NCBI GenBank assembly: GCA_949902595.1
Contig: CATLDC010000002.1
Coordinates: forward strand, 1 to 64,000
Direction of reading: 5' to 3'
DNA length: 64,000 nucleotides
Origin: an uncultured Candidatus Melainabacteria bacterium
GTDB lineage: Bacteria > Cyanobacteriota > Vampirovibrionia > Gastranaerophilales > Gastranaerophilaceae
Numbering within the stretch: the stretch's first letter is position 1; the number at the start of each line of letters is the position of its first letter. The notes beneath the pieces are model-generated. The model was not told the DNA's origin. It saw only the letters and a list, made by a program, of their open reading frames with translations, and did not search any database. The position numbers and the translations under genes were made by a program. Shown piece after piece: positions 32,496-38,334 of this stretch.

Positions 32496-33038
32496 TCAAA
32501 GGCTAAACATCCTTAAATTATCATCAATAATCTCCTGCGTAACACCAATATACCTGAGTGTAATATCCTGTGATGAATGATTCAGGATTTTTTGCAAAAG
32601 AGCGATATCCTTTGTCTGCTTGTAAAAATGATAGCCAAATGTCTTCCTCAAAGAGTGCGTTCCGGTATGGTCTATCCCCAATGCGTCACACGCCTCTCTA
32701 ATTATTCTATATGCCTGGATTCTTGATATCGGGCGGTTTGATTTGCGGCTCTTGAATAAGTACCGGCAAAGCGGCTTGCGCTCAACATATTCGCTAATAA
32801 ACACTCTGATTTCTCTTGGGATTGGAAACTTCTTGGTCTTGCGGGTTTTCTTTTCTCTTATCTGCACGGTCTCCTTATTCTTCACATCCCTGACCCGCAG
32901 GCGCAGCAAGTCAGAAACACGCAGCCCTGTATTAATCCCCATCAAAAAGAGAAGCAGGTTACGCGAGCCGCTCTCACGAAGGATACGTTTTACACCATTA
33001 ATATACTCTTTGTTTCTAATTGGATCTACTACATTCAT
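32496..33038 (-). CDS. Tyrosine recombinase/integrase, catalytic domain only
   Basis: 180 residues containing the integrase catalytic residues: Arg in NTGLRVSDLL, Lys in EKKTRKTKKF, HSLRKTFGYH (His, Arg), the LNHSSQDITLRYIG block with the second His and nucleophile Tyr. The N-terminal core-binding (SAM-like) domain is missing. SD AAAGGAA precedes ATG. No att-like repeats or phage genes are near. It could be an invertase-type or orphan recombinase. Confidence 0.85.
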   Translation of the reverse strand: MNVVDPIRNKEYINGVKRILRESGSRNLLLFLMGINTGLRVSDLLRLRVRDVKNKETVQIREKKTRKTKKFPIPREIRVFISEYVERKPLCRYLFKSRKSNRPISRIQAYRIIREACDALGIDHTGTHSLRKTFGYHFYKQTKDIALLQKILNHSSQDITLRYIGVTQEIIDDNLRMFSL

Positions 33039-33155: not shown

Positions 33156-34619
33156 CTATATTTTCCCAACGAATTTTATATTGCACTCACTAACGAGTTC
33201 TTCATTCGCAAGCACCGTCAGATTCTGGACAAATTCCGAAAGGATTACAAACACCATGTGGCGCAAATCCAAAGGAACAACAAGAATAGGGATCTCGATT
33301 TTCTTAGACGCAACAAATTTTTCTATCTTATCAACTATTGCCTCAACATCTGTCGCGTCGATTCTTATAATAGCGTCATCCTCATCCTTAAAGAATGAAT
33401 AAACTTTTTCCAGAGTATCCTCAGAAAGCTCAATTACACTAAGCTCGCCATCTTTTGACAGGTCTTTGACAATATGTTTTGAAAGCGCGAGTCTTACTTT
33501 GTCCAACAAATCTTCTTTTGTAGGCTCGTTTGCGTAGTCATTGATTTTTTCAAAGATATAAATAATGTTCTTTACTGAAACTCTTTCTCTGATTAAGCAA
33601 GTCAGAAGATACTTTAAGTCAGACGCTGTAATAAAATCAGGTATTATGTTATCAACAAGGAAAGAGTTGCTTTCCAGAACGATTTCCACATACTTGTTGA
33701 TGTCGTTGTAGTCCATAATATCAGAGACTTCTTTTATTGAAACATACTCAATTGCTTTTCCGATATACTCTACAGCGCTCATACCCTGAATCCAGAAGTC
33801 TTTGACCTTGTCTTTCTGAATCCAGATAAGCTCTTTGCCGGTAATCTCGTCAGCGAGTTCGATATCGTCTCCGTCTGCCTTGTACCCTTTTAGCTCTTCC
33901 TTGTAAAACGCCATATAGCCCGGGAAGACAACGGTGCGCAAAACTTCGATATCATGAATCTTGATATTGAACTCGTTTTGCATAAGCTCATCGCTGTTAT
34001 GAAAATGGATATGCGGAATCACGTACCCGAGAGTATCAGTAAGTTTTTGCCTGATTTTCACGGTCTCTGCAAGCAGGTTGTCGTTCTGCTCAAGAGAAAT
34101 AACTTCAAGAATCTCTTCAGAAAGATTCACGACGAACTTTTCTTCTTTAATTGTGGAATACATCGCCTCCGGAGAAATCTCGTTTACAAGCGCCTGCTTA
34201 AGAACGTCAAGCTGCTTCAACTCATCTGACATCTGGTTGTTTAATTGATTTTTTCTATCCGGAGAAAGGTTTTCGCTCTCAAGCTGGGATTTAATCTTTT
34301 TAATTCTGTCTTTCTGGTTGGAAATCTTTAGTTGAATCTCCTTGCAGGAAGCATAAGGGCTTGAAGGCGCTGCAAGCATCTTTTCCATGCGGTACTTAAA
34401 GCTTGTAATATTAACGATATCGTCCAAATCAGTGGCGTCTTCTTCCTGCTTTTCACGCATAAAGATACAATTGAAATCATAAGACGAGCTTGTTTCTACT
34501 TCGTGCATAGTGTACAAATCCCATCCGGCTTCTGACATCTCGTTAAGCAGATTTTCGAGCGCCTGCTTATCGTCTGTCGGAACTGATTTTATAACATATT
34601 GCATCTTTTTATTAAACAT
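33156..34619 (-). CDS. Soluble FlhA cytosolic-domain protein fused to DUF4177
   Basis: 487 residues. Residues ~6-55 (MQYVIKSVPTDD ... GWDLYTMHEVE) fit DUF4177. A coiled coil (~90-145) follows. Residues ~160-487 align throughout with the FHIPEP/FlhA C-terminal domain: LGYVIPHIHFHNSDEL, KELIWIQKDKV, IVLESNSFLVDNIIPDF, DLKYLLTCLIRERVSVKN, and the terminal LVVPLDLRHMVF ... NIKFVGKI. The eight TM helices of FlhA are absent. Start chosen at the ATG after GAGGA, overlapping deoA by 8 nt. In flagellated bacteria FlhA-C docks chaperone-substrate complexes; the role of a free copy is unknown. Confidence 0.8.
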   Translation of the reverse strand: MFNKKMQYVIKSVPTDDKQALENLLNEMSEAGWDLYTMHEVETSSSYDFNCIFMREKQEEDATDLDDIVNITSFKYRMEKMLAAPSSPYASCKEIQLKISNQKDRIKKIKSQLESENLSPDRKNQLNNQMSDELKQLDVLKQALVNEISPEAMYSTIKEEKFVVNLSEEILEVISLEQNDNLLAETVKIRQKLTDTLGYVIPHIHFHNSDELMQNEFNIKIHDIEVLRTVVFPGYMAFYKEELKGYKADGDDIELADEITGKELIWIQKDKVKDFWIQGMSAVEYIGKAIEYVSIKEVSDIMDYNDINKYVEIVLESNSFLVDNIIPDFITASDLKYLLTCLIRERVSVKNIIYIFEKINDYANEPTKEDLLDKVRLALSKHIVKDLSKDGELSVIELSEDTLEKVYSFFKDEDDAIIRIDATDVEAIVDKIEKFVASKKIEIPILVVPLDLRHMVFVILSEFVQNLTVLANEELVSECNIKFVGKI

Positions 34620-35940
34620 CGTCATCCTCGTCATTTCTAATAATTTCATATAACAAACTTTTGTGCGCAGGCTTGCTTTCACTTATGATAAAAGCCTCGT
34701 CGCAAAATCTCTGCGCAGCCTTTGTGCTTTCCTCGCAGTTTGAGTAAATTGTGTACAAAGTCTCGCCCTTTTTAACGTATTCCCCGCTTTTCTTGTTGAG
34801 ATAAATCCCGACACTGTAATCAATTGTGTTGCTGTATTTGTCCCTGCTGGCGCCGAGCAAAGAAGCTGCGTGTGCAATATTGTACGCGTTTATATTATGC
34901 ACATAACCGTTCTTCTTGGCTTCACACTCAATCTTGAAACACGGAAGCTCAAACCTGTCGTAATCGTCAATAACATCCGGATTTCCGCCCTGCGCTTTAA
35001 TTAGTTCGCGGAATTTTTCAAGCGCTTTTCCGGACTCAACAAGCCCTCTAAGGTAGTTAACCGCCTCTGTTGTATTCTCATACATGTCAAGGTTTTGAAG
35101 GATTATCGCAGCAAAAGAGTAGGTTAATTCTGCTAAATCGCCCGTTTTTATATTCCCCTTCAAAAACTCTATTGCCTCAATTATCTCAAGCGTGTTCCCG
35201 ATAGCGCGCCCGAGCGGCTCTTCCATCGAAGTCACAACCGCTGTAATCTTCTTTCCAAGCTGCTTACCGATATTCACTATAAGTCTTGAGAGGTGCACAG
35301 CATCTTCTGCTGTTTTCATAAACGCACCGGAACCATACTTAACATCAATAATTATTGTGTTTGTGCCTGATGCCAGCTTTTTCGAGATAATAGAAGATGC
35401 AATAAGCGCATCATTATCAACTGTTGCGGTTTGGTTTCTAAGAGAATGCAGCTTTTTATCAGCAGGCGCAAGGTTCTTGTCCTGCGAAGCGATTACTGCG
35501 TTGATACTGCTTACCTGATTTACAATAGCCTGCGTTGTAAGGTTTGTATTAAACCCCGGGATTGCTTCGAGTTTGTCAACAGTTCCGGCTGCGTGCCCGA
35601 GCCCTCTGTCTGCAAGCTTTGCAACAGGGATTCCGGCAGCAGCAAGCAGCGGGATGAGGGTTATTGTAACATTATCACCCACACCGCCTGTTGAGTGTTT
35701 ATCCACAACAGAGTTTTTCAGCTCGCCAAAGTCAATAGTGTCACCGGAAGAAGCAAGAGCTTCCGTAAAAAACGCGGTCTCGTCCTCATTCAGGCCTTTA
35801 AAGCACACAGCCATAAGCCATGCCGAGATTTGGGAATCGTTTGCAGACTCGCTCATAATTGTATTAACAATGTAGCAAATCTCGTCTCTGGTATGGTGAA
35901 GTCCCTGTTTTTTCTTTTCAATCAGGTCAACAAAGTTCAT
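34612..35940 (-). CDS. deoA: Pyrimidine-nucleoside (thymidine) phosphorylase
   Basis: 442 residues, full length. The family signature DKHSTGGVGDNVTITLIPLLAAAG and the phosphate/nucleoside-binding ADRGLGHAAGTVDKLEAIPG are intact. It cleaves thymidine, deoxyuridine or uridine with phosphate in nucleoside salvage. Its ATG immediately follows the ompH stop (sharing one base) and no clear SD is visible, so translational coupling is likely. Confidence 0.95.
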   Translation of the reverse strand: MNFVDLIEKKKQGLHHTRDEICYIVNTIMSESANDSQISAWLMAVCFKGLNEDETAFFTEALASSGDTIDFGELKNSVVDKHSTGGVGDNVTITLIPLLAAAGIPVAKLADRGLGHAAGTVDKLEAIPGFNTNLTTQAIVNQVSSINAVIASQDKNLAPADKKLHSLRNQTATVDNDALIASSIISKKLASGTNTIIIDVKYGSGAFMKTAEDAVHLSRLIVNIGKQLGKKITAVVTSMEEPLGRAIGNTLEIIEAIEFLKGNIKTGDLAELTYSFAAIILQNLDMYENTTEAVNYLRGLVESGKALEKFRELIKAQGGNPDVIDDYDRFELPCFKIECEAKKNGYVHNINAYNIAHAASLLGASRDKYSNTIDYSVGIYLNKKSGEYVKKGETLYTIYSNCEESTKAAQRFCDEAFIISESKPAHKSLLYEIIRNDEDDDV

Positions 35941-36389
35941 TATTTTTTAACGCCTTTTAGTTTTGCAATTACAATATCGGTAATATCAACACCGCCAACA
36001 AAAACACCTCTTTGATCCATAATTGCATCGAGTTTTTGCTCAACCATTACAGCTTTTGCAGCGTCTTTAATCTTTGTATAAACTTCCTGTTCTCTTTTGT
36101 TCTTCAAAGTAACATAAGCTGTTTCTTTTGCCTTAAATTCCTGTGCAACTTTTTCTTCAAAAGTCTGTTTCTTCAAAGGTGTATCCAAAGATTTGTATTC
36201 TTTTTCTTTATCAACAAGGAATTGCTGCATTTCCAGTCCTTTTGCGTCAACTTCTTTTGTAACCTGTTTTGCGTAATCGTAGTTTGCAATTACTTTTGCA
36301 TAATCGATATAACCAACTCCGCCTGCATTAGCAATACCTGTCACAGCAGCAAGCATAAGTACAACAAGCCCTAATTTAATTTTTTTCAT
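35940..36389 (-). CDS. Periplasmic chaperone OmpH/Skp family
   Basis: 149 residues with a signal peptide (MKKIKLGLVVLMLAAVTGIANA). VGYIDYAKVIANYDYA at the mature N-terminus and a long charged helical hairpin are typical of Skp/OmpH, which shields unfolded outer-membrane proteins. The internal ATG behind TTAGGAGG was chosen; the in-frame upstream codons include a TATAAT box. It directly follows bamA, as in many diderms. Confidence 0.88.
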   Translation of the reverse strand: MKKIKLGLVVLMLAAVTGIANAGGVGYIDYAKVIANYDYAKQVTKEVDAKGLEMQQFLVDKEKEYKSLDTPLKKQTFEEKVAQEFKAKETAYVTLKNKREQEVYTKIKDAAKAVMVEQKLDAIMDQRGVFVGGVDITDIVIAKLKGVKK

Positions 36390-36435
36390 ACAAAACCTCC
36401 TAATATCTATAATATCATTATACAATACTTTTTTA

Positions 36436-38334
36436 TTAGTACATCATATCGCCTGCACCAAACGTGAAGTATCCGTTAGGAGAACCGTTCGGGCCAGGGT
36501 TTGTAAGCGGGAAGCCGTAGTCAACAGACAGCGGACCAACACCCGGCATATTTATCTTCAAACCAATACCGGCAGTAATTGCATGAATCGGTCTGTCATA
36601 TAATGTACTAGAAATAGTAGGGTCAAACACACGCCCTGCATCAACCCAGAAAGTTATTCTCAAATTCTGCAAGAAGTTAACCTTGAGCCTGTCAACAAAC
36701 GGAATCGGAGTTGCGAGCTCTGCAGAACCCATAATGAACGACGTACCTGTACCAACCCCGTTAACCTTGTAACCTCTGATTGTATAAGGTCCGCCAAGAC
36801 GATAAGCCATAACTTCAGGCATGTCTGAACCGTGCGCCTTCAAACCGCCGCGGCCGGTGAAGGTCAAAGAAGACTTCCTGGCGATTGGAATATATTTTTT
36901 AGCCATTGCTGTTAAACGCCCGTTTGTTTTACCAAACCCGTCGAGTCCGAACGCTTCTTCATATCTAACAGAAGCAAGAGCACCGTGGCGCGGGTTAACA
37001 ACAGAGTCTCTGGAATCGTAAGCCAACCCCGGAGCTATTCTTAAGAACAATCCGCCTTCAAGCTGCTTAGCACGGTCTGCAATATTAAGGTTGTGCAGCC
37101 TGTACATAGAGCTTATGCCGGCAATATCACCTTCATCAAGGTTAATGTATTCAACACCGCCGGTTAATGTTGTTGACAGATGACGGTTGTATTTGAGTCT
37201 ATGAGCCACAGTACCTTCAATACCGATTCTGCGCTCAACTGCAAGCGGAATCTGGTAGCTGCCCAAGTCTCTGAAATAGATTTTGCTCATCAAAGAATTG
37301 TCAGCATTCAGAAAATGAGGCTCAAAAAAGCTCAATTCAGCCTGATAGTTCATGTGGTTCTTGATTGAAGAGTCACTCATCAGGATACCGGAACCAACCA
37401 GACCTGTAAGAGACACCCTCTGGTTCATTCCTCTAAAGTTGTTATCTGAGATACCCACAGAGCCGAACGCACCGGTTGCAGAATCCAAGCCGCCACCCAC
37501 TGAAACAGAAGCGGTTCTCTGTTCTTTTAGCTCAATTGTGATATCAAACTTATCCGGATCGTCTTCCGATACTTCAATCGTTCTGTTTACATCCTTAAAC
37601 GCCTGTGTGGAATACAGTCTAACCAAATCCTGTTTAACCTGGTTTTCGTTATAAACAGTACCTGGTTCTGTCATAATATTACGTTCAACAACATAACCCT
37701 TAGTTTTTTCGTTTCCGGTAATCAGAATCTTGTTAATCTTACCTTCCGTAATACTAAGGTTCAAAGTCCCATCCGGATCATCGTAAATCGAATCTATTTT
37801 GGATAGAATATAACCTTTTGAATAGTAGCAGTTATTAATCTTTTCCATTGCTTCGTTAATCGCGGTGATGTTTTGCGGCTTGCCTTTCAAAGGAAGCAGG
37901 TACTGCATAATCTCATCACCCGAAACAACTGTGTTACCTTCTATCGTAAAATCAGTAACAGGGATATTTTCCTCCAGAATAATCTTGAGTGAAATCGTTC
38001 CGTTTGAGTTCTTAACCGGAATCGCCTTCATTCTTTCTGTAAAATATCCGAGTCTGTAGATTGTCTTCAAGTCCTGCTGCATCTGGTCTTTGTCGTACAA
38101 ATCACCTTTTTTCAAAGACATTTTTGAAAGGATGTAGTCAGGTCTAATGATATTAGAGCCAAGAATCTCGATATCGTTAATATACGCTGTATTGCTGTCG
38201 TAAGAAGACTCTTCAATGTAGTCAAGTTCTTCTCCGGCTTCTTCTGCAAGGCAAGCACAATAAGGGGTTGATAAAGCTCCCAACACCATTGCAAAGATTA
38301 TTAAGTTTTTATATAAACCTGATAGATTAATCAA
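36436..38334 (-). CDS. bamA: Outer membrane protein assembly factor BamA (Omp85)
   Basis: 632 residues with an N-terminal signal sequence, about three POTRA domains (e.g. NDIEILGSNIIRPDYILSKMSLKKGD) and a 16-strand-type barrel ending FGAGDMMY. The L6 loop motif region YRLGGPYTIRGYKVNGVGTG contains the conserved RGY. The start codon appears to be TTG behind GTGGAGTGG. BamA inserts outer-membrane beta-barrels; its presence shows a diderm envelope. Confidence 0.95.
   Translation of the reverse strand: MINLSGLYKNLIIFAMVLGALSTPYCACLAEEAGEELDYIEESSYDSNTAYINDIEILGSNIIRPDYILSKMSLKKGDLYDKDQMQQDLKTIYRLGYFTERMKAIPVKNSNGTISLKIILEENIPVTDFTIEGNTVVSGDEIMQYLLPLKGKPQNITAINEAMEKINNCYYSKGYILSKIDSIYDDPDGTLNLSITEGKINKILITGNEKTKGYVVERNIMTEPGTVYNENQVKQDLVRLYSTQAFKDVNRTIEVSEDDPDKFDITIELKEQRTASVSVGGGLDSATGAFGSVGISDNNFRGMNQRVSLTGLVGSGILMSDSSIKNHMNYQAELSFFEPHFLNADNSLMSKIYFRDLGSYQIPLAVERRIGIEGTVAHRLKYNRHLSTTLTGGVEYINLDEGDIAGISSMYRLHNLNIADRAKQLEGGLFLRIAPGLAYDSRDSVVNPRHGALASVRYEEAFGLDGFGKTNGRLTAMAKKYIPIARKSSLTFTGRGGLKAHGSDMPEVMAYRLGGPYTIRGYKVNGVGTGTSFIMGSAELATPIPFVDRLKVNFLQNLRITFWVDAGRVFDPTISSTLYDRPIHAITAGIGLKINMPGVGPLSVDYGFPLTNPGPNGSPNGYFTFGAGDMMY

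Follow-up and report, generated by a model that had tools for sequence, protein, structure and literature searches.

A conserved soluble FlhA paralogue in the Gastranaerophilales and its probable kinship with a second type III export gate

Why would a bacterium keep a free, cytosolic copy of the docking domain of FlhA, a component of the flagellar export gate? The question is raised by one gene in a 64,000-nucleotide stretch of DNA (the window) from a member of the Gastranaerophilales, whose genome assembly comprises 2.10 Mb in 41 contigs. The Gastranaerophilales are a gut and groundwater order of non-photosynthetic relatives of cyanobacteria. A preliminary description of the window, made from the sequence, had read the gene product as a soluble FlhA cytosolic domain (FlhA-C) joined to a DUF4177-like domain and a coiled coil, and had proposed that it serves as a repurposed chaperone and cargo adaptor or as a regulator of export. 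We refer to this protein as sFlhA (Table 1).

Table 1. Coordinates of sFlhA, its parts, its neighbours and the system-B loci (positions without a contig name are those of the window)
Feature	Position	Strand	Basis or remark
sFlhA, 487 aa, soluble FlhA-C preceded by a new N-terminal region	33156..34619	-	profile, PDB and fold matches
N-terminal beta-alpha-beta-beta domain, residues 1-58, DUF4177-like	34446..34619	-	model and weak profile match
Helical hairpin, about residues 88-150	34170..34358	-	predicted model and alignment with FlhA-B
FlhA-C-like domain, residues 150-487, D1 to D4, altered chaperone dimple and hinge	33156..34172	-	profiles, fold, alignment
deoA-like pyrimidine nucleoside phosphorylase	34612..35940	-	overlaps sFlhA start by 8 nt; gene-order partner
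Skp/OmpH	35940..36425	-	gene-order partner
BamA/Omp85	36436..38334	-	gene-order partner
System-B loci	L035:4637-10713, L144:4519-15211, L172:3478-8038, L142:9010-10827		rod genes, SctQ-like protein, FlhB by sigma factor

The protein is indeed a copy of FlhA-C that has no transmembrane (TM) helices. It matches the Pfam FHIPEP profile (E = 5e-45, positions 321-655 of 657) and the NCBIfam FlhA profile (E = 7e-40, positions 314-678 of 678), and the FHIPEP-like part runs from about residue 130 to the C-terminus, where it reaches the last profile positions. The matches begin at profile positions 314-321, and the N-terminal gate-forming TM domain is missing. A single hydrophobic 19-mer occurs in sFlhA, and it lies within D4; both full-length FlhA proteins have 6-8. 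By sequence, the protein matches the solved FlhA-C structure of B. subtilis in the PDB (3mix, E = 7e-20). The structural match that had been proposed as a check is also found in an AlphaFold model built from 35 natural sequences (A2; mean pLDDT 76.5). Its top Foldseek match is the cytoplasmic domain of FlhA (6ch1, E = 4e-20), and VIA-align superimposes it on FlhA-C structures with a Z score of 26 across 322 residues. The complete cytosolic fold, D1 through D4, is thus present by both profile and fold comparison. The open reading frame spans 33156-34682 on the minus strand, and the conserved ATG at 34619 is preceded by an AGGA-type ribosome site.

The N-terminus is new, as the preliminary description had it, and a helical hairpin is predicted where a coiled coil had been proposed (helices 88-113 and 120-148), but the match to DUF4177 is weak. 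The N-terminal domain, which is the best conserved portion of the protein across the order, is modeled with strands at residues 6-14, 34-42 and 47-56 and a helix at 18-30. Thirteen of 18 homologues match the DUF4177 profile, consistently but below threshold (best E = 3e-4), and the protein in the window reaches 14 bits where the curated cut-off is 25. Foldseek returns no match at E <= 0.001 with residues 1-150, and most of the VIA-align matches to this region (Z up to 10) are to helical hairpins of a generic kind.

The missing TM half of FlhA might suggest a degenerate fragment, or a gene that a frameshift or an assembly error has severed from its membrane-spanning part. The probability of such an artefact is negligible because the same architecture is found in 180 of 183 Gastranaerophilales genomes, the dN/dS ratio is low, and the gene upstream is deoA rather than a TM-coding fragment. 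Two scans recovered full-length sFlhA in 54/56 and 130/131 genomes, and the combined figure counts genomes common to both scans once. The open frames of the 180 carriers range from 473 to 552 aa, and the new N-terminal domain is conserved. Two of the three genomes that lack the gene are 80% and 83% complete (G012 and G053); the third is G309. The gene is under purifying selection (dN/dS of 0.04-0.07 in the three pairs with finite dS). Among 161 sampled genomes of the phylum outside the order, 22 encode FHIPEP proteins and none encodes sFlhA; the best of these outside proteins reaches an E value of about 1e-68, and every sFlhA scores about 4e-135 or better. No soluble FlhA paralogue is described in the open-licence papers that we searched. 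sFlhA is therefore a real and conserved soluble paralogue of an export-gate protein, undescribed in that literature.

The preliminary description had noted that no flagellar operon was in view. This is correct within the window and fails for the genome as a whole, which encodes complete FlhA proteins from two export systems. A genome search finds two full-length FlhA proteins and two copies each of FlhB, FliF and FliP. One FlhA (FlhA-A) belongs to the flagellum, here called system A, and the other (FlhA-B) to a second and largely overlooked type III system, here called system B. System A has a fliP-Q-R-flhB-flhA cluster (contig L034) together with FliM, FliN and FliS. There are 19 flagellin-domain matches outside the window (contigs L054-L061), several of which sit in very long frames of 1059, 1090, 1481 and 2619 aa.

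System B has a fliE-fliF-unknown-fliH-flhA operon on contig L035, which in other genomes is accompanied by FlgF/G-like proteins, FlgB, FlgC, a lytic transglycosylase and FliI. A second cluster encodes an SctQ-like protein with two SpoA domains, FliO, FliP, FliQ, a small protein and FliR, and the FlhB-B gene adjoins a gene for a sigma factor. Pooled over genomes, the sctJ/N/Q/R/S/T/U/V core of a non-flagellar type III secretion system (T3SS) is found outside flagellar loci, and its members in system B are FliF-B, FliI-B (found in G044), the two-SpoA protein, FliP/Q/R-B, FlhB-B and FlhA-B. A non-flagellar T3SS is expected to lack the flagellum-specific genes fliE, flgB and flgC, and all three do occur in system-B operons. 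The position of FliG is taken by a conserved protein of unknown family (L035:6787-7839 and L144:9492-11025; a tandem pair in G044), which has no Pfam match and bears no convincing resemblance to FliG (hhalign probability 3.5). The small protein between FliQ and FliR (L172:4258-4659 and L174:8793-9149) is conserved, has 118-139 aa and a signal-like start, and likewise has no Pfam match.

Seven genomes, all 99% complete, have no flagellum (G059, G068, G084, G117, G123, G144 and G160). They lack FlhA-A, flagellin and FliS and encode a single SpoA protein, and they retain FlhA-B, FliP-B, the two-SpoA SctQ-like protein and sFlhA. The correspondence between sFlhA and system B is not complete. FlhA-B occurs without sFlhA in G309 and, together with the absence of flagellin, in two members of another family or lineage of the class (G133 and G162), and two draft assemblies have sFlhA with no FlhA-B detected (G226 and G279). 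Several non-motile Gastranaerophilales have been reported to carry a subset of flagellar genes that would not build a flagellum (PMC4040986; similarly MEL.A1, PMC3787301). Part of this subset would correspond to system B. The open-licence papers that we searched describe no type III system in the order.

The phylogeny that had been called for, to place the protein with flagellar or injectisome FlhA, puts it beside FlhA-B. In a maximum-likelihood tree of 57 sequences, built from the FlhA-C part under a C20 mixture, the 26 sFlhA sequences form a single clade (100/100) that is sister to the FlhA-B of the order (98/96). FlhA-A is placed apart and joins the flagellar FlhA and SctV references (100/100). 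sFlhA sits on a long branch (1.43), and a position for it outside all FlhA-B is not rejected by an AU test (p = 0.16). Position 480 in Salmonella-type numbering, which is taken here and below from an enterobacterial FlhA, is a gap in all 26 sFlhA and all 17 FlhA-B sequences and a T in 8/8 FlhA-A. The FlhA-B linker helix VQSQLGQLENVRQNMQDLVNPNRMY is collinear with sFlhA MSDELKQLDVLKQALVNEISPEAMY, and the second hairpin helix and the P-x-x-M-Y linker (residues 150-154) of sFlhA align with the FlhA-B linker. The duplicated piece therefore appears to include that helix. Judged from these alignments and the tree, sFlhA is most probably a duplicated, membrane-free offshoot of FlhA-B that has lost the TM domain and gained a new domain and the first hairpin helix. 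The view of it as a repurposed copy is upheld.

The residues of the chaperone cleft, whose mapping had also been proposed, show several changes in sFlhA. In Salmonella FlhA, D456, F459 and T490 bind FlgN, FliS and FliT, and linker residues 351 and 354 can occupy the dimple of a neighboring subunit and block chaperones (PMC8166844). The opening of the domain is driven by G368, which belongs to the moving GYXLI motif (PMC9431611). We compared these positions in 26 sFlhA, 8 FlhA-A and 17 FlhA-B sequences. Position 459 is F in 8/8 FlhA-A and Y in 15/17 FlhA-B; it is T, S or N in 24 of the sFlhA proteins and aromatic in none. T490 is found in 8/8 FlhA-A, in 15/17 FlhA-B and in no sFlhA, and the hinge glycine 368 is replaced by S in all 26. 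D456 (25/26) and W465 are retained. The conservation of P646 and P667, which make the closing contacts of D4, is gone, and conservation is lowest (0.43) in D4 itself, which forms the mobile wall of the cleft. The linker positions P351 and M354 agree with FlhA-B. If these positions act as they do in Salmonella, the plug (the linker) would be kept and the socket (the dimple) gone, which would fit a cap or a decoy better than a dock.

The gene row with deoA and bamA that was described for the window is confirmed, as bamA-skp-deoA in front of sFlhA. In 80 contigs from the nearest relatives, BamA and Skp precede sFlhA in nearly all, DeoA comes immediately before it in 54, and Skp lies within 6 kb in 78, either adjacent or across DeoA. 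The usual overlap of deoA and the sFlhA gene is 8-32 nt, which suggests that their translation is coupled. This order is confined to the gut family, and other families have unrelated neighbors. In one genus (g19; G123, G217, G065 and G291), sFlhA shares a 20-kb stretch with the sctQ-fliOPQR-B cluster or its fliR end. In another (g7), it lies directly upstream of fliJ-fliK-flgD-flgE, a hook operon that probably belongs to the flagellum, and on contig L096, from a relative, the flagellar flhA-A follows a short way downstream. Most genomes have sFlhA away from system-B genes, and those outside the gut family, g19 and g7 have no common neighbor. The gene order backs no single partner, nor does it exclude a link to the outer membrane. 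Small tyrosine-recombinase catalytic domains of 180-183 aa occur by sFlhA in the window (32496-33038, minus strand) and near FlhA-B (L035:13824-14375), and another lies between sFlhA and the flagellar flhA of a relative (L096:3148-3690). These recombinases are possibly linked to rearrangements.

We assign sFlhA to system B because it groups with FlhA-B and is retained in genomes without a flagellum. We consider this assignment likely, even though system B occurs without sFlhA in G309, G133 and G162, and sFlhA usually stands apart from system-B genes and in g7 precedes a hook operon. The suggestion that it regulates export may concern system B rather than the flagellum. The explanation that we favor, in which sFlhA is an offshoot of FlhA-B that acts on the system-B gate from the cytosol, as an accessory or a cap, has about an even chance of being correct. 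The protein would associate with the FlhA-B ring and, through its FlhA-B-like linker and conserved D1 and D3 surfaces, fill or line the docking ring; its own dimple would no longer accept chaperones. The N-terminal domain and hairpin might stand in for the membrane anchor as a module for oligomerization or partner binding, and sFlhA could then set when, or which, cargo arrives at the gate. That it is specifically a cap or a hetero-ring regulator is a tentative proposal. Somewhat unlikely is the idea of a decoy or cap that works in the cytosol and derives from the docking domain of the gate itself, with the linker "key" kept and the dimple "lock" lost. Such a protein would be a type III regulator of a new class, controlling an order-wide system that has so far been read as a degenerate flagellum.

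Other roles fit parts of these observations. Its position within bamA-skp-deoA, with overlapping genes and Skp close by, could place sFlhA outside type III export altogether, in outer-membrane biogenesis or in a stress or metabolic circuit, and its presence in the two drafts where FlhA-B was not found agrees with this. However, that gene order is a feature of the gut family, with hook or system-B genes nearby elsewhere, and BamA and Skp function outside the cytosol and sFlhA lacks any TM segment, so we regard this role as unlikely. Still less likely is a soluble adaptor or shuttle, as the preliminary description had offered, that collects chaperone-bound cargo in the cytosol and passes it to the gate. 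The complete FlhA-C fold and the retained D456 and W465 are compatible with such a protein, and an unusual chaperone could use the altered dimple, but F459 or Y459, T490 and G368 are lost in 26/26 sequences, the D4 wall is less conserved than the rest of the protein, and FliS and flagellin are missing from genomes that retain sFlhA. A canonical chaperone and cargo dock is accordingly unlikely. The setting in g7 and the nearby flhA-A on contig L096 would suit a function in the flagellum, for example as a switch in hook assembly. This is strongly disfavored and very improbable, as sFlhA groups with FlhA-B and persists where flagellin, FliS and FlhA-A do not.

A free, order-wide FlhA docking domain could reveal which activities of the FlhA ring are separable from the gate in the membrane. 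sFlhA also directs attention to another type III system, one that is present in common gut bacteria. In flagellum-less Gastranaerophilales, sFlhA is accompanied by a distinct export core that has an FlhA, a FliP and an SctQ-like protein of its own.

Compared with FlhA, sFlhA has the whole D1-D4 fold, the linker and the C-terminal strand, but it lacks the TM domain, carries the N-terminal domain and hairpin, and has lost F459, T490 and G368. Its nearest relative in the tree is FlhA-B, with which it has in common the linker helix, P351 and M354, and the gap at 480, whereas FlhA-B has a full TM domain and mostly Y459, T490 and G368. SctV has the same fold (VIA-align Z 18-24), but sFlhA scores 5e-24 with NCBIfam hrcV against 7e-40 with FlhA, and the tree does not join the two. 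FlhX/YlqH-type proteins, which are stand-alone soluble C-terminal domains of FlhB (NCBIfam TIGR00789 is an 84-residue FlhB-like model), are a precedent in that the cytosolic domain of an export-gate protein exists on its own; there the parent is FlhB and here it is FlhA, and in sFlhA key functional residues are gone and new domains have been added. The injectisome gatekeepers SctW, InvE and MxiC are cytosolic regulators at the cytosolic ring of the gate. The same mode of action is proposed here for sFlhA, which differs from them, compared by description only, in being itself an FlhA-C paralogue. The non-flagellar T3SS of Myxococcales, which has no secretin, resembles system B as an export core without flagellar filament genes (PMC3459982), but system B retains FliE and, in several genomes, FlgB/FlgC and FlgF/G-like rod genes.
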